Position numbers and translations under genes: made by a program
DNA from: Loxodes magnus
Lineage: Eukaryota > Ciliophora > Karyorelictea > Loxodida > Loxodidae
Direction of reading: 5' to 3'
NCBI GenBank assembly: GCA_946699065.1
Contig: CAMPDV010001328.1
Span: 61,378 to 125,377 of the forward strand
DNA length: 64,000 nucleotides
The notes under the pieces: generated by a model
Databases searched by the model: none
Told to the model about the DNA's origin: nothing
The model's input: the letters and a program-made list of their open reading frames with translations, nothing else
Shown here: piece after piece, positions 4,654-61,984 of the stretch
Layout: every line of letters starts with the position of its first letter
How positions within the stretch are numbered: the stretch's first letter is position 1

Positions 4654-6080
4654 AATCCTTGAGTACTAAAAAATAGGTTGGAACAATAAGATGGATGGCG
4701 CCTGAGTTATTTGGAATGAGGCCGAGGTATAGTATCTATTCTGACATATATGCTTATGGAGTTGTTTTATGGGAGATAATGTCTAGAAAAATACCTTTTG
4801 AGGAAGTAGAGGAAGGAGAGTTGCGAGAAGGGATAAAGAGAGGTGAAAGAGAGGAATTACCTGAGAATTGTGTGATAGAGGAGATAATAAGGGAGAGTTG
4901 AAAATAAGAGGCGGACCAAAGAATGAGTTTAGAAACGTCATTGTAGAAGTTAGAGAAGATAAAGCAAGAAATGAGAGAGTTCGAGATAATAAAGAGTAAT
5001 GTGGAGAAATTTGAAGGAGAAGAGCAAAAGGAAGAAGGAACAAATAAGAAAGCGAAAGTACAAGAAAACGAGGTAGGATATGTTGGAGAGAAGAGAAATG
5101 GAAAGATGCATGGTTATGGGGTTTATAAGTATAACGATGGAGATCGATATGAAGGTTAATTTGTAGAAGATCTTAGTTAAGGAAAAGGAACTTACTACTA
5201 TGCAAATGGAGAAATATATGAGGGTGCGTTTTTCAAAGGGAAGATGCATGGCTATGGAATTTATAAGTATAAGGATGGAGATCGATATGAAGGTTAATTT
5301 GTAGAAGGTCTTTAGTAAGGAAAAGGAACTTACTACTATGCAAGTGGAGAAATATATGAGGGTGAGTACTTCAAAGACAAGAAGCATGGTTATGGAGTTT
5401 ATAAGTATAAGGATGGAGATCGATATGAAGGTTAATTTGTAGAAGGTCTTAGTTAAGGAAAAGGAACTTGCTACTATGCAAATGGAGAAATATATGAGGG
5501 CGAGTTTTTCAAAGGGAAGATTCATGGTTATGGAATTTATAAGTATAAGGATGGATCTCGATATGAAGGTCAATTTGTAGAAGGTCTTAGTTAAGGAAAA
5601 GGAACTTACTACTATGCAAGTGGAGCAATATATGAGGGTGAGTACTTCAAAGGGAAGATGCATGGCTATGGAGTTGAAAAGTATAACGATGGATCTCGAT
5701 ATGAAGGTCAATGAGTAGAAGATCTTAAGTAAGGAAAAGGAACTTACTACTATGCAGATGGAGAAATATATGAGGGTGAGTTTTTCAAAGGAAAGAAGCA
5801 TGGGTATGGGGTTTATAAGTATAAGAGTGGAGATCGATATGAAGGTTAATTTGTAGAAGGTCTTTAGTAAGGAAAAGGAACTTACTACTATGCAAGTGGA
5901 GAAATATATGAGGGTGAGTACTTCAAAGACAAGAAGCATGGTTATGGAGTTTATAAGTATAAGGATGGAGATCGATATGAAGGTTAATTTGTAGAAGATC
6001 TTAGTTAAGGAAAAGGAACTTACTACTATGTTGATGGAAGAAAAGAAGTGCAAAATTGTAATAATTGGATAAAATTATGA
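4650..6080 (+). CDS. Truncated kinase-MORN protein (C-lobe end of kinase plus MORN repeats)
   Basis: ATG 4650 opens a 477-codon frame ending at TGA 6078-6080. It starts inside the kinase activation segment ([18 protein letters not shown]) and so lacks the ATP-binding lobe, the HRD loop and DFG: it cannot be an active kinase. After the C-lobe come about seven copies of a 46-residue double MORN unit (core Y-E-G-x-F ... G-K-G-T-Y-Y-Y ... H-G-Y-G). It is a partial, inverted duplicate of the full gene at 10583-13354; similarity begins abruptly near 4654. Both copies carry TGA in place of the conserved Trp of kinase subdomain XI (4897-4899 here). One MORN unit (about 5710) has TGA where other units have Phe. 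The frame is intact, so it may still be expressed as a MORN-only protein. Confidence 0.8.
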
Positions 6081-10582: not shown

Positions 10583-13354
<2,772 letters not shown>

Positions 13355-15099: not shown

Positions 15100-15896
15100 A
15101 TTAAAGTTTAGCATTCCCTGGATTTTCAACCAGGTTTTTGCTACCATTTTTTTAGCGTGGATGGATACCACGCCATTTTTTTTTGTGGATGGAACCACTG
15201 AGAATCTTCTGTCTTTTATAAGAATATCTTCTTCTTGTAAATTCCCGTTTCGGTGATTCAGAGTCTGCTAAGCATTCTTAACGTTCTTTGTTGTTCTTTC
15301 ATCTAAATTTATCTCCACTGATCGCAATTTTGTAATAGGTGTCACTTTGATTTGCAATAATAGCAATTTTTGATTGGTCTTTTCTTGAATCTCTTCAGAA
15401 ATACTTTTTTTTCAAGTTAATCGATTCTTTGGAGTAATTCTATATTAATCTTTTCGTCATTCTATTTTTCTTGGATGTTTGTTTATGTAGAAACTTTTTC
15501 AATAATCATATTTTGTTCTTGCTTAAAATTCGATTGAGATTATTCATATAGTTACTATTCCGTGACTAAATTATTTTAAATCAATTGTCGTCTTATTATT
15601 AGTAGCTCGTTGTTTTAATCTTCGATAGTATTCATTAGTTCTCTTATTTTTTCCCCTTGATTGTAAATTGTTTCCTAATAATTTTGTATTATTGTTTTCA
15701 TTTAGTCAATTTATATTTAGATTTCTGATTATTTTTGTACTTTTACTGGATTCGTCTCTATTGTTCCAATTATAACTTTTCCTTCAGATGAGGAACTTGA
15801 TTTATCTTCTTCTTGTTATTGTTTCTGCGTTAGTTTCGCAGCTTTCCTTTTTGCGTTCTTAATTTGGTTTTTGGAAAGGCGAATAGATTATTCCAT
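15100..15896 (-). CDS. Gag-like ORF1, copy A, intact CCHC zinc knuckle
   Basis: ATG at 15896 opens a frame of at least 265 codons. The N-terminal third is basic, followed by a Ser/Glu-rich segment and a long coiled-coil-like region rich in Gln, Glu, Asn and Ile. At 15324-15365 lies C-Y-Y-C-K-S-K-W-H-L-L-Q-N-C, a perfect CX2CX4HX4C zinc knuckle in which Trp is TGA. Such knuckles bind nucleic acid in Gag proteins and in retrotransposon ORF1 products. The tail after the knuckle contains W-F-H-P-Q and W-Y-P motifs encoded over small DNA palindromes. The end is unclear because the frame stays open toward the decayed family copy at 13926-14465. Confidence 0.65.
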
Positions 15897-28129: not shown

Positions 28130-28927
28130 TATGGATAATGGAATGTTTCCTTAATAGGTTCATAACCCCCTGCATTACCTTTTACAGGGTCTCGGACTCG
28201 CCGGTGTCTCCACCCAAGTTCACTTCCGAGCTTTCCGAATGGTCTTGGAGTTATCTTTTATCTTCAAAGCTAACCATCCGAGGAAGGATAAAAATTTGTA
28301 AGTTCCTTCCAAATATTTTTTCTTATTAACCAATTCCTCCTACATTTTTTTCATAAGTGGAATAAACTGCCGCATATATAACATTTTTTCTTGAAAAAAT
28401 TTTCTGTCATCATAGGTTATTCTTCTATTACCATTGGATCATTATTTCTTTTTAGGTCTTATTCTTCTAATTTTCCTAGTCTCTTTTTTATGTCCGTTAT
28501 TTATTAAAATGCGTTTTCATACTTTAAGAAATCTGTTCCCATTTATTCATTAATTCTTACTATATCGCATTCTATTTCTTAATATCTGTTGCTAATGTCC
28601 TCTTTGGTCACAAATTCATTATGCGGTCTCTTGTCCTCGACATGGTCTTATAAATCTTATTGTAAACTCATGACGTAATTTTCGAGGTTCTCTACCTTAT
28701 CAATGTAATCAAAAATGATTTAAACAAGAGACTTTTTATCTTAGTTCATAAGTTGTTCGAAGGTTTAACTTTTTTTTTGAAATCTTGGAAGGAAATTATT
28801 TTTCTTCTGAGATTCTACAATATTATTTCTTTTTTGTCTTTTTTGGAGTTTGTTAGAGCTGGAAAGATTGATCTAAGGAGTTACGAGAAGCCTTTTAGTC
28901 GAGAAAGCTTTTGTTCCATTCCGCCAT
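28130..28927 (-). CDS. Gag-like ORF1, copy C, intact CCHC zinc knuckle
   Basis: Starts ATGGCGGAATGG (M-A-E-W) at 28927, matching the start of copy B. A coiled-coil region (D-Y-I-D-K-V-E-N-L-E-N-Y) is followed at 28342-28383 by C-Y-I-C-G-S-L-F-H-L-W-K-K-C, a perfect CX2CX4HX4C knuckle whose Trp is TGA. The N-terminal 55 residues and the coiled coil lie in different frames, so either a short intron or a frameshift is present near 28770-28790, close to a 9-A run. SINE R3 lies 540 bp downstream on the same strand. Confidence 0.6.
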
Positions 28928-31501: not shown

Positions 31502-32852
31502 TCATTTACATCCTATTTTACTTTTTTTATTTTTAGTTATCAACTCGGGATTTATTTATGCTGGTCTTTGACAAAGTTAACCTTCTTTGCTACATTCTGA
31601 ACATTTTATGGGATCATAATTATCTATTCCTTAATAGTTTGTATAAAAAGGACATCCTTAAGCATGATAATGATTTCCGTGAGCAAAAATAGGCTTATAT
31701 AAATTAACTTACATTTTGATTTACACAACATGCAAAACACCATTCTCCTTTGCATTATTAGCAAACTACATGATTACAGTTAATTGGTCTACCTCACTGT
31801 TTTTTACAAAATGGACAGTTTCTTATATCTATTCCTGCTTTTTCAACTTCTTTTTTCGCCTAAAAATAAAAAATCACCTCTTCAGCAGCAAAATTAGAGC
31901 AAGGTCCTAAATGTTTATTTTTATCGCACAAGATGCAGATTTATTTTTTGCAATTAGGACATTTATAAGACCTATCAACATTTCTTAAGTCAAAAATTTC
32001 ACCACAATTTGGACAAGATCTAAATTTAAAAAATTACTTAAATCCTTTTATCGATTTTGCTCTCCACAGGCAGATATTATTTCATTATTTCTCAGTCATA
32101 TTAGCTCTTAAAAGTTCATGATTGAGCTATTTGAAACCTTCAACAGGCATTTCTAGTGGTTAATTGCATTCACAGCATTTATAGTCAGTATTTTTAAAAA
32201 GAAATTAATCATAAGCTGTTTTTATAAGTTTCTTTAAGCAATTTTTATCAATTTTATGATTACATGTTAAAATTACCAAGTCATTAATTTCATAAGTACC
32301 TAAGCATCATTTGCAATCAAATGTAAATTTCTTTTCTTACGTTTACGAAAATTAATATGGTTTCCGTTTTTAATTTTAAAATTTAAGAGTACTATGAAAC
32401 TATTTTAAGTTTTAATCTTGAATGGAAGATGAAAAAATAGAGTTTTCTAAATTTTTCTTTTATTTTTAATGCTTTTCCTCTTCTTTTTCATTTTCCTATA
32501 TTTTAAATAAAGAAAATTTTGCTTAAATATTGCTATTCTTTTTATCTGATTAATTAAGTGCTATCGAAGTAAAAGTTTTATTTAACTACTCTAGATTATC
32601 GCTTCTTTTATTTTTAATTTTCTTATTTTTAATTTTTAATTTCTAGTTTTAGCTTTCTAATTAATTATTTCTGGCTGATTAAACTTATCTATATGAAATA
32701 TTCAAATCAGGTTAAATCTTTAAAGGTAAAAGATTAATTTATTTCTTATTGACTATTAAACTTCTTTCTGATTCTTAAGTATTACAGGTTTAAGGTCTTA
32801 CTTTGATAGAACTATTTTTTTAGCTTTATTGAGCAAACTAGGCTTAGAGCAT
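31502..32852 (-). CDS. RBR-type E3 ubiquitin ligase (RING1-IBR-Rcat), one 19-nt intron
   Basis: Exons 32852-31713 (380 codons) and 31693-31502 (64 codons, TGA included) flank a 19-nt intron at 31694-31712 (gtaagttaatttatataag). A Gln/Lys-rich N-terminus precedes RING1 (first Cys about residue 180), an IBR with C-P-N-C-G-E-I-F-D-L and Y-K-C-P-N-C at about 280-310, and an Rcat (RING2) domain from Cys346: C-P-F-C-x9-C359-N-H-V-V-C-Q-Q-C-x4-C-F-A-C, the spacing of parkin RING2. Cys359 is the expected catalytic Cys that carries ubiquitin as a thioester. After the intron, H-G-N-H-Y-H and further Cys residues follow. Three internal TGA codons (32307, 32082, 31794) read as Trp. E2-dependent ubiquitin transfer in the cytosol is inferred from the family. 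Confidence 0.93.
31694..31712 (-). other. 19-nt GT-AG intron in the RBR ligase gene
   Basis: gtaagttaatttatataag on the minus strand. Only its removal restores the His/Cys-rich C-terminus (P-I-F-A-H-G-N-H-Y-H) and leads to the terminal TGA. Confidence 0.85.
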
Positions 32853-56864: not shown

Positions 56865-59558
56865 ATGAGTTATATAAACTCAGAAAGTCAGATAAAAGAG
56901 ATTTTAATCAATATATCCTAGCAAATATTATAGGCTCATTCTTTCATTCAGAACGAAGTGGCCTAAATTTTAGAAGGTTCTTTATTTAGCAACAGCTTAG
57001 AAATTTGGTAAACCATTTCTCAATCTATTCCTACTCTCGCTTCTCAGGCGAATTCCATCTAGTATTTACCTGATCTAACTATAAATTAAAACCAGGATTA
57101 ATAAATGAATGAAAACAATTATGATTTACAATATCTGAATTAAATAATCTTAAAAGGAAGACAAGAAATACTCACGCTTCAAGAGAAATCTTTGCAATTT
57201 CTAGACTTCATAAAACATATTGTTTAAAATTCATCGAACTAAACTTTATAATAGACATAACTCGACAACTAAAGAATTAGTGAAGAGGCTTATAATCAAG
57301 CTTTTAAGTAGTATGATCTCATATTTAAATTAGATAGCATATAATCTTTTAACTCTCAAACGAGTACGGAAAATTAAGTTAACAATTCTAATTACTAAGA
57401 AAAATAAAAATAATCATTTTCTTAGTATAGCTAAATGATTTTGGAATAAGCTGAGTAAATAATCAATAGCTAACGTATAATAAACTAATAATAGCCATAA
57501 AATTACTTAGCGCGATAATTTAAAAGTCCTTTTTAGTAAATTTCTCTAGTAAATTAAGAAGTATAATGTGAAATTTTAAATTCTTAAATAGATAAGTTAA
57601 AACAGTAAAATGAAGAACTAAATAGTGAATTAAGCTAAGTACTTAGTTAGATAAGTAGTTAAACTTAATAAATAAATGATCTAAATTAAAAAATTTAAGA
57701 CTAAGAAAAATCTATTAATCAAAGGTAAGAAAAGATATTACAACTAGAAGAGCAAAACTAGAATTTAATTAGATAATTAAAAGAAAATTAAGATTAATAA
57801 TCTTAATAATTTTCACAGTAAAGCAAGGAAATTTAAGAACTAAAAGGAAAAAATAAAAATTTAGACTCATAAATTAATAATTTAGAATCATAAAATAAGT
57901 AATATCTTTAATAAATAAATGATTTTGACTAAATTAAGAATTAAGAAAAATAAGTATTACAAAAATAGTTAAACTAAGCAGAAGATAATAATAACTAATT
58001 AAACTAATAATTATAAAGTTTGTCCTAATAGTTAAAAGAAGTGGAGACATAATAAACAAAAATGAAATCTGATCTTAAATCTAAAGAAGAATAATTAAGA
58101 TAATATATCTTATAATATTAAAAAAACTAATAAACAAATTAGTCTCAAGAGACTTAGTTTAAATAGTTGAACTAGCAAATAAATAAATTAAATTTAATAA
58201 TTTAAAAAAACTAACAAAATAGTCAGAATCAAGAAAACTAGATACTATAATAATAATAAAGCATTTCATAGTTAAAAAACTAAATAAATGATTTAAATGG
58301 TAAACTAAAAGATTCTGATTTAAAAATTTCAGCTTTTAACTAAATTATTAATAAAAAGGAATAAGAAATTAATTAATAGAATAATAGAAAATATTAACTT
58401 TAATAGTAGTAAAACTTTAATTATAATTAAATCAACTAAATAAATATTCAACCATAATTAAGATTAAAGGGTATTTAAAGTTAAAAATATACTCTAGAAG
58501 ATGTGATGAAGTTATTAGAGAAATATGGAGCTAATTTTTTACCTTAAGCTTATATAAGAATATGGTAATATAAAGATCTTATTCCTAATAATAAAGAGTT
58601 AAACTAACTTTAAGTAATTGGAAGAGGAGGATAAGCTATTGTCTATAAAATAGAAATAGAAAATATAGAATATGCTTTAAAAGTAATAATCCAAAAGAAA
58701 GGAACTGATGAGCAATAATTGCTAATCGACTTTTATCAAGAATGTTAATCACTTCTTAGTGTTAATGATACAAGAGTACTTAGACTTATAGGAGTAGTAG
58801 TAGAAAAACATGAATAAGAACTTATTTTATGTATCATTACTAATTTCTAATAGAAAGGAAATTTATACAATATCATATAAAGTAAAAAACTTTTTCAAGA
58901 GGCTAAAGATAAAAAATAAAAATTTGAAAAGAAATTAAGACTTTTATAATAAATTACAGAAGGAGTGAGTGCCATTCATAATGCTATCTTAATACACAGA
59001 GATTTAAAATCTTATAACATTCTTCTAAATGATAATGATAGTCCTAAAATAGCTGACTTAGGTTTAACAAGAAAGGATGAAATTGAATTTACAGAGCAAG
59101 GTAGAGGAACAGTTCAGTGAATGGCTCCTGAATAGTTTTAATTTAAGCTTTATAAATAAAGCGATATTTGATCATTAGCTTGTATTGCTATAGAAATATT
59201 TAATGAATCTCTTCTATGACCCTAAAATTGCACACCTGAATAAATAAGAAATTTGATAGTAAATTAGAGATAAACTCCATAATTTTCAGATGAAATAAAA
59301 GAAAATAAAAATTTAGAAGAGTTATTAAGGAAATGCTTAAGTTACAATTATAAAGAAAGACCTAATATTTAAGAAATACCTAATATTTAAGAAATTCTAT
59401 AATCTTTATAGCAAATAAAATTAGATTAAAGCAAACTAAAAAGAAAAAGAATATAAAAACTAAGAATAAATCATAAGTTAAGATATCTAAATTTAATAAT
59501 CTTAAAATTAATAAGAAAATAATAAAGAAGCACAGATAGATTATTAAATTAATTATGA
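56865..59558 (+). CDS. Coiled-coil protein kinase (TKL-like), about 897 residues
   Basis: ATG 56865 to TGA 59556-59558, 898 codons. Residues 1-130 are mixed. About 200-520 form a long Gln/Asn/Leu-rich coiled coil (Q-I-D-K-L-K-Q-Q-N-E-E-L-N-S-E-L). The kinase domain starts near 583: V-I-G-R-G-G-Q-A-I-V-Y-K, Lys606 in A-L-K, H-R-D-L-K-S-Y-N from 711, D-L-G at 731 in place of D-F-G, and G-T-V-Q-W-M-A-P-E with Trp752 as TGA. S-D-I-W has Trp769 as TGA and a further TGA-coded Trp follows at 785. E-R-P-N-I ends the domain, where an 18-bp segment is tandemly duplicated. All catalytic residues are present. Self-assembly through the coiled coil is likely. The last 30-50 residues are uncertain because another frame looks better after about 59410. 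Confidence 0.87.
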
Positions 59559-59694
59559 AAATGTTACTGAAGCATTTAATTTTTCCTTCATTGGTTTATT
59601 TATTTATATAATCATTCAAAATTTAAATAGAAACTTACCAATTTAATTCTTTAAAAATACATTATCAAGAAATTCTTTCTTACTGAGTAACTTG

Positions 59695-61984
59695 ATGTTA
59701 ATCTCCTTCGTATACTCAAGATTAAAGGCAAAATATTAACATTTTTTTGTAGACGCTTCCAAAGTAGTAATCGCATGTGGATTCTTTATTTGATATCTAG
59801 CAGTTACATTTATGACTCAGGCTACTGCTATTACATCTACTGTTTTTAATTTGCCTTTTGTTCTACTTATTTTAGGAAATTGTTTCTTTAGTTTTATTTG
59901 ATTCTAAATTAGTCTAATCTTTTAAATTTTGCAGAGAGAAGCTGCAAGATGAGGATTTTATAGTAATATTAAGCTAAATATGCGAGTTGAAGGTTTTTTT
60001 ATTATTAAAATGGCTCTGCATATTTAATAGATTGATTGTAAATCTGTACAAGCTAAAGTATAATTCTTATCTCTAGCGAATAATAGTTGTAGCTATTCTT
60101 TGTTCTATGCTACTCTTTCTTCAGCTAACCAATTACATAAAAACGAAAGGTGATAATACTTTCTGCTGATATTATTTAAACTTCTAGCAACTACTTAATC
60201 GTAGTTGAAAATTAGGTAACTAAGTGATAGAAACTTACTTGAGTTGAGTAATCTTAAGTCTTAACAATTCTTTGTCTACGATTATTCCACTCTGAGTATC
60301 TTCTTTGAAAGAAGATTGAGTTTAATAAAGAGAAGTCTTAAAAGGTTGATTCTGAGATACACTTAAAGGTAATAAAGTGATGGTAAATCTCAAGATTAAG
60401 CTTATAAGTTGATTATGTCAGTCATTTTAAAATATAATGAATATATGAATATGAATTTAATAGAATCAAACAACTAGAGAGATTAAATAGTCTCATAGTA
60501 TAATTACTAATTAGTTTAAAGGTATGAAGGCTTATTAATTAGCTTTAGTTTAAATCAAATTTAAAGCTATTTAGCTATTTATTATTTATACAGAGACATA
60601 AGTTTATCAATAAAATGAATGATGGAATTTTGATTATTTTATTAATTACGTATGAGAAACCTTTGGTGTTCATTTGATAACAACTGTAGACACTAATTAG
60701 ATAAAATTTACTCATTAGATACTTGACTAGATTAGTTTATTGAAAGTTTTCTGTTATATTTTGATCTTAAAGTCTTAAACTCTGGCGATAGTAGGTTCTG
60801 GATTTGATTGGTTTATATCTGTTATGATTAGATATATGAAACTAAATCTTCTGTTAATAGATTTTCTAAACTCTTAAATAGGAGACAGCAATATAGCAGT
60901 TGAAAAGGTTGGCACATTCTCTAATCTTTTCTCTTTATTCTTGATTCTTACTTTTTGTTTGTATAATATTGTGTTATTTAGGTATTAAGCATATTAATAG
61001 GTTAATAATTTGAACTAAGATATAGCTATGTTATTTAAGTTAAAAGGTAGATTAGATATAAAGAGAAAGGTTGAATTGAATAATAAAGAGAAGTAGATTG
61101 AACTATTGAAGTAAATAAATATGCTTAGCACTAGTAATAAATAGAAAGAAATAAGCAAAGAAACTAATTATTAAAATAGTAAAGATTAAATAAGCTTTTA
61201 ATATAATAAGCATCTAGTTATATCCATTCATATTTAAGAACTGCTTATTTAACTTATTATATTTATAATCAAAGATACTTCCTCAATTAATACAATCAAG
61301 CTACTTCAAACCAATATTTCAATTTACAAATCAGAACCATAATAGATTAAGATAGAGGACAAAAGAATCAGCAAATTCATCTACAACAAGATACTCAATA
61401 AACATAAATTGTATAATAGATCTGCCCATTGTAGATAGCTTAGTAATTGCAACTTACAAATTTAAATATCTTGCATAATCTACCAGCAAAATTGATATTT
61501 AATTTAGCTAAATTCATACAAATTTTAAAGCTTACATTATGTGAGGAACTCAGAATACTGGAAAATAAATTAATAATTGAAGACTAAATTCATTTAAACT
61601 CTATGAATAAAACTTAAATAGATTTGCATCATTAATATTGGCAGAGCATTATGGAAAATTCAAGTAATCAACTATGATAGTAGAAGATTTCACAACAATG
61701 ATCATCAAGTTTGTAATAGTAAAAATGAAAAACATTCTAATAATAAAAGTGTCTGAAGAGACTTAGTTTAGGAATTTAATTAATTTCAGTCATATCACAA
61801 TTACCTTAGCTTTATTTTTCAAATCCAATACGAATAAAATTAGTGGAACATACAAAGAAGAATTCTCTCTTTAAGAAAGTTGTATAAGATAATCTAGTCT
61901 ATATCTATCATTTTGTTAGCTTAAATCTAAAAATAATGGAAAGTTGTTACTCTAAAAGCGAAAATCTATGAAATAATAAATTGA
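59695..61984 (+). CDS. Membrane protein with cytosolic coiled-coil tail, one 19-nt intron
   Basis: Exons 59695-60981 (429 codons) and 61001-61984 (328 codons with TGA) join across a 19-nt intron (gtattaagcatattaatag). The N-terminal part has several helices (V-V-I-A-C-G-F-F-I-W-Y-L-A-V-T-F and L-P-F-V-L-L-I-L-G-N-C-F-F-S-F-I-W-F), then a soluble region. Beyond the intron is a Lys/Glu/Gln-rich segment (K-R-K-V-E-L-N-N-K-E-K-Q-I-E-L-L-K). Many Trp residues are TGA. In the same frame, Gln/Asn-rich text and a further hydrophobic helix extend upstream to about 59410, so the true start may be earlier or the protein may be fused to the kinase. Family not recognised. Confidence 0.5.
60982..61000 (+). 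other. 19-nt GT-AG intron
   Basis: gtattaagcatattaatag; its removal joins two long frames that are otherwise one base out of phase. Confidence 0.65.

Follow-up and report, generated by a model that had tools for sequence, protein, structure and literature searches.

Can TGA be both a Trp codon and a gene end in one genome, with TAA and TAG also read as sense? This question is raised by a gene at 56865..59558 (plus strand) of the window, by which we mean the whole 64,000-nucleotide stretch of DNA analysed (C1328:61378-125377). The gene joins a Gln-rich region to a TKL/TK-like kinase domain (about 58605-59381 by Pfam; Pkinase, E=1.4e-39; PK_Tyr_Ser-Thr, 2.4e-39). Its 3' end as originally given is doubtful, and its best matches among PDB sequences were tyrosine kinases and B-Raf (including EGFR, LCK and ITK). 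Under NCBI code 27, the frame has 898 open codons and carries TGA at 59118, 59169, 59217 and 59556; under code 6, the first three of these become internal stops in the kinase domain. An earlier note on this DNA had held that all three stop codons are used as sense and that TGA is in addition a stop, as in NCBI codes 27 and 28, and this was borne out by the kinase alignment and the histone gene ends described below.

Stop codons at sense positions

The kinase domain was compared with its relatives in its own genome (705,730,643 bases in 7843 contigs), where PF00069 gave at least 136 matches among the best candidates scored. The 88 best, with the window kinase, made up an alignment of 89 domains, which are paralogues of one genome, some of them near-identical, and so not independent. 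Stop codons were left as X, and the residue of the other sequences in each column was scored. The aligned residues pointed to Trp for TGA (68 scored codons; Trp 212, Phe 35, Tyr 8), in a pattern like that of the TGG control (109 codons; Trp 390, Phe 69). For TAA (438 codons) the best residue was Gln (287), then Lys (92), and the same order was obtained for TAG (205 codons; Gln 130, Lys 51); Gln was also best for the controls CAA (230 codons) and CAG (77 codons). In most kinase columns holding TAA or TAG it is Lys or Glu that abounds, and the same is true of the CAA and CAG columns, so that Gln wins by likelihood and not by consensus. The proposal that conserved sites have TAA and TAG for Gln holds for the residue, with Gln codons found at the same place in H3 genes and MORN repeats, but not for the conservation of most kinase columns. 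At the H3 position concerned, L009-L011 carry a Gln codon and L012-L013 carry TAG.

The three internal TGA codons of the window kinase fall in columns of different character. The TGA at 59169..59171 occupies the Trp of S-D-I-W in subdomain IX, a column that holds W in 45, TGA in 32, F in 6 and Y in 5 of the 88 other kinases. The TGA at 59118..59120 corresponds to the Trp of W-M-A-P-E; this column is Y in 88 of 88 other Loxodes kinases of the PF00069 set. A set of 12 TKL-type kinases (10 of 147 PF07714 matches, hand-picked for variety and not blind, plus two window kinases) has TGG there in 8 and TGA in 4. This Trp is therefore conserved only among TKL/TK-like kinases. The earlier note had called 59118 and 59169 two of the most conserved Trp positions in kinases: both TGAs are indeed in frame and the claim suits 59169, but for 59118 it has to be narrowed to the TKL/TK-like group. 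The column of the third TGA, at 59217..59219, is aromatic without being a Trp position: the 88 other kinases have F in 87 cases and Y in 1. Across the 89 domains, TGA accounted for 93 of 220 TGA and TGG codons (93 TGA, 127 TGG), and 45 of the 93 fell in the two Trp-consensus columns, against a mean of 0.57 and a maximum of 5 in 1000 permutations.

Two kinase-MORN genes of the window use TGA in the same manner. The larger one (10583..13306, minus strand, 5' limit provisional; MORN, E=1.6e-157; PK_Tyr_Ser-Thr, 3.4e-61) runs from its kinase domain to a TGA stop at 10583-10585 and has sense TGA at 12620, the Trp of subdomain XI, and at 12329, 11639, 11363 and 10673, an aromatic position of the MORN repeats. 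The assignment of 12620 to the subdomain XI Trp was upheld, since the 12 TKL-type sequences have TGG in 6, TGA in 5 (12620 included) and Leu in 1, the last being the 56865 kinase. In the paralogue (4665..6080, plus strand, 5' limit approximate; MORN, E=2.5e-90; PK_Tyr_Ser-Thr, 3.3e-17), the kinase domain is represented by its C-terminal portion alone; sense TGA occurs at 4899 and 5712, and a TGA stop at 6078-6080. Among the 13 RYEG repeats of the larger gene, the same place is filled by CAA-TGA in 4 and by TAA-TTT in 9; at the level of sequence, these pairs serve as an internal control for TAA as Gln and TGA as an aromatic residue. Taking both paralogues together, RYEG repeats with TGA have CAA before it in 5 of 5 cases and those with TTT have TAA in 14 of 15, a pairing that suggests two repeat lineages.

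An RBR-like (RING1-IBR-RING2) gene at 31502..32699 (minus strand, 5' limit provisional; IBR, E=1.3e-5), whose RING parts were recognised solely by the arrangement of Cys and His and whose frame matched no PDB sequence up to E=0.1, has sense TGA at 32307, 32082 and 31794. Removal of a putative 19-nt GT-AG intron (GTAAGT...AG; 31694..31712, minus strand) leaves a Cys/His-rich frame that runs to a TGA stop at 31502-31504. In the available text of PMC11441545, Loxodes introns have a mean of 19.3 and a mode of 17 nt and are mostly 16-25 nt long, and the 3'-UTR median is 41 bp; the putative intron would fit these lengths better than those of heterotrich introns (15-16 nt). The TGA at 32307 lies inside the C-x2-C of the RING1-like stretch, and TGA likewise lies in frame within two CCHC-like motifs (28342..28383 and 15324..15365, both on the minus strand), which are motif matches only; none of the frames scanned with Pfam returned a CCHC family. 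In all three cases, for which the same sense use had been proposed, the cysteine spacing supports a sense reading of TGA, but Trp is not diagnostic at these sites.

Gene ends and rival explanations

Histone-fold genes were used to locate gene ends, 30 of 31 PF00125 matches having been fetched. In 29 of the 30 loci, an in-frame TGA followed the Pfam match within at most 53 codons, and the ends agreed between relatives; two of the loci, L026 and L027, are apparently one duplicated gene. All five H3 genes examined (L009-L013) end in RGERT-TGA. L030 and L031 each have one TGA within the histone fold, presumably at the NF-YC Trp position, and another TGA at the end. TAA and TAG are present within histone and eRF1 genes.

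Two sister loci depart from this pattern. In the H3 variant L017 (C327:221690-222034), three successive TAA codons stand at the place of the TGA in its relative L015, and the frame continues for 176 codons without an in-frame TGA. L014 (C34:504328-504675), which is among the 29, has TAA at the same place and TGA four codons later. No other locus of the 30 has TAA at the stop site of its relatives, and TAG was seen there in none. UGA may thus not be the sole stop, and the end of L017 is a candidate UAA stop.

L017, and possibly L014, would also speak for a Condylostoma-type code (NCBI code 28), in which the three codons are sense internally and each is able to terminate. NCBI table 28 (Condylostoma magnum) shares with the window a sense use of all three codons, and the reading of UAA and UAG as Gln and of UGA as Trp is common to codes 27 and 28. 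However, UAA and UAG also terminate in Condylostoma, according to the portion of PMC4967479 at hand, whereas here TGA comes soon after the match in 29 of 30 histone-fold loci, and regular UAA or UAG stops were not found in this set. The 19-nt length of the putative intron also differs from the 15-16 nt given for heterotrichs in the passages of PMC11441545 available. On balance the evidence favours code 27, and we consider code 28 very improbable.

Both eRF1 genes (L147 and L148, on C196) end in TGA, with a second in-frame TGA within a few codons. The best PF03463 match, L146, was rejected as eRF1; its sequence resembles pelota/Dom34, which is presumably what it is. Stop recognition is governed by the NIKS and YxCxxxF sites of eRF1. 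Alignment of L147 (the one copy aligned) with the eRF1 of PDB 4d5n showed that this factor is altered at both, TASNIKS being replaced by RAQNIKS and YLCDNKF by FLCENTF, and that Glu is replaced by Ala three places upstream of the TASNIKS motif.

In the window itself, TGA ends the kinase-MORN genes at 10583 and 6078, and the RBR-like gene at 31502-31504 once the intron is removed, so that single genes carry UGA in both meanings. In the larger kinase-MORN gene, the one case measured, the last sense TGA (10673) stands 30 codons from the stop at 10583; the accessible part of PMC11441545 reports a depletion of coding UGA in about 20 codons ahead of stop UGA.

The TGA proposed as the stop of the 56865 kinase (59556..59558, plus strand) behaves differently. 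A DNA search with the kinase locus listed 40 places, and the 12 highest-ranking were retrieved. They comprise the window's own locus (L120), an identical one (L119) and ten (L121-L130) with 96-97% identity across the query. These ten near-identical copies lack one base of an upstream A run and an 18-nt duplication, and their frame continues beyond 59556. With a shared codon as the starting point, the first TGA comes after 44 codons in the window copy and in L119, 72 in L130, 90 in L122-L128 and 248 in L121 and L129. The TGA at 59556 is in frame only in the window copy and L119, while all ten of the other copies run on through this point in a different frame, so that it is doubtful as the gene end of the kinase family and is probably not that end. 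The claim that TGA also ends the genes in which it is sense is not confirmed for this kinase at 59556 and stands for the histone-fold genes, the eRF1 genes and the three other window genes.

The kinase locus forms part of a repeat: window 57026-61155 recurs on ten further contigs (L119 and L121-L129), with an identity of 96-100%. The match to L130 is shorter, and copies that have diverged more are grouped on C483, C10, C1050 and C1182.

The 1-nt indel and the 18-nt duplication that set the window kinase apart from its ten copies, together with the little coding signal across much of the window, might suggest that the frames are pseudogenes, decayed copies holding ordinary stops; but decay, unlikely already as a genome-wide condition, would not place 45 of 93 TGA codons in two Trp columns where chance gives 0.57, nor put TAA and TAG in histone and eRF1 genes, and even the retention of the three kinase TGAs in 10 of 10 near-identical copies, a weak argument since the copies are recent, points the same way, which leaves this explanation with a negligible probability.

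Equally improbable is that very short introns or editing take out the TGA codons. According to PMC11441545, most Loxodes introns do not exceed 25 nt, and of the 11 TGAs tested, 7 (59118, 12620, 12329, 11639, 11363, 10673 and 31794) do fall within GT-AG strings of 14-26 nt. Such strings are plentiful in AT-rich DNA, however, and none covers 59169, 59217, 32307 or 32082; those at 59118 would remove the APE motif. Moreover, homologous MORN repeats that carry TTT instead of TGA align without gaps, and one aligned Trp column is filled by TGA in other kinases too. With four of the 11 TGAs unspanned, the MORN repeats gap-free and the Trp column shared, splicing cannot explain the whole set, although single sites could be affected. 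The gene sequences support the reading of TAA and TAG as Gln and of TGA as both Trp and stop in the window genes.

Transfer RNA genes for Trp

The search for a tRNA-Trp that might read UGA used a core pattern of 22 places, with either C or T accepted at the first anticodon position; it would miss any UCA gene whose core differs. The genome contained 73 matches, 72 on C148 and one C110 gene, and every one had the anticodon CCA. A tRNA-Trp with anticodon UCA, which the earlier note had suggested looking for, was thus absent from the 73 core-pattern matches; the genes found have CCA instead, many with a 4-bp anticodon stem. One earlier pattern had matched nothing, and the next had turned up two 5-bp-stem genes on C110, a result contrary to the 4-bp mechanism until the C148 form was found. 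For tRNA-Gln (UUA/CUA), one query, a Tetrahymena sequence, gave no match and was uninformative. Rfam at gathering thresholds returned three tRNAs only and no rRNA.

The 72 tRNA-Trp(CCA) cores of C148 lie at 155458-209566 (L153-L160). Sixty-six of them form a minus-strand tandem array from 157309 to 173043, spaced at 241-242 bp with one step of 285, and six more lie elsewhere on the contig. The 16 copies read of the 72 were identical over 73 nt, as were the eight complete units of L155 at 241 bp; an array of identical units could be a misassembly. In the ARAGORN drawing, the C148 tRNA has a 4-bp anticodon stem with the top pair (T, C) unpaired, in contrast to the 5-bp stem of the three C110 tRNA-Trp(CCA) genes read. 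Control tRNA-Glu(UUC) had 203 exact cores, and the 100 listed were spread over many contigs (34 on C58) in no regular tandem array. High tRNA copy number therefore appears usual in this genome, and only the tandem arrangement is special.

The 4-bp-stem tRNA-Trp(CCA) has been reported for Loxodes and Blepharisma, as seen in parts of PMC13092985 and PMC12005148. The C148 form resembles the one known from Blastocrithidia and Condylostoma in having CCA and an open top pair of the anticodon stem. It differs in that a single contig carries 72 cores, of which 66 are arrayed in tandem at about 241 bp, and in the presence of C110 forms with a 5-bp stem as well. No mention of the array was found in the literature covered, which was incomplete, and the word tRNA is absent from the main text of PMC11441545 as far as it was available.

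On C110 (361709-473962; L141, L142, L149 and L152), the Trp, Met and Arg(CCT) tRNA genes have almost the same body, with an unusual T-stem, such as might result from a swap of anticodon arms inside a single family.

The Loxodes code and UGA supply

We are highly confident that the window is macronuclear Loxodes DNA, most likely of L. magnus, and that it follows NCBI code 27 with UAA and UAG as Gln. The code and the length of the putative intron agree with this attribution. The Loxodes code, with UAR as Gln and UGA as Trp or stop, is already known and in print. The sections of PMC11441545 available place Loxodes among the karyorelicts with NCBI table 27, in which context sets whether UGA is Trp or stop. 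UAR as Gln with UGA as Trp or stop is given for Condylostoma and Parduczia in the available part of PMC4967479, and the same code is described or cited for karyorelicts generally in the portions seen of PMC10553269, PMC12005148 and PMC11687900. Like NCBI table 27 (Parduczia sp., Loxodes magnus), the window genes have TAA and TAG as Gln, TGA as Trp internally and as stop terminally, and a short putative intron; there is no clear break between that table and the genome of the window, with possible UAA ends in one or two H3-variant loci. Seah et al. (2022) is reportedly the source of the karyorelict-wide code and is said to remark on rare stop-UAA as well.

In a mechanism that combines inference with the literature, the 4-bp-stem tRNA-Trp(CCA) would decode UGA in vivo, the altered eRF1 would be UGA-selective, and UGA near the poly(A) tail would act as a stop. 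It is conceivable, though in our judgement unlikely, that the heavy use of UGA for Trp is sustained by the dedicated array of about 66 genes against an altered eRF1 and rare UAA ends, the array being a selected dosage mechanism.

One codon that means both Trp and stop in a single gene breaks the rule of one codon, one meaning. Dual UGA shows that termination can hinge on position in the mRNA, a point in print for Condylostoma, karyorelicts and Loxodes. What is added here is a check of the code from raw DNA and, in the large tandem array of the tRNA type credited with reading UGA, a possible supply-side explanation; if it is true, the array would tilt the balance at UGA between this tRNA and the release factor.
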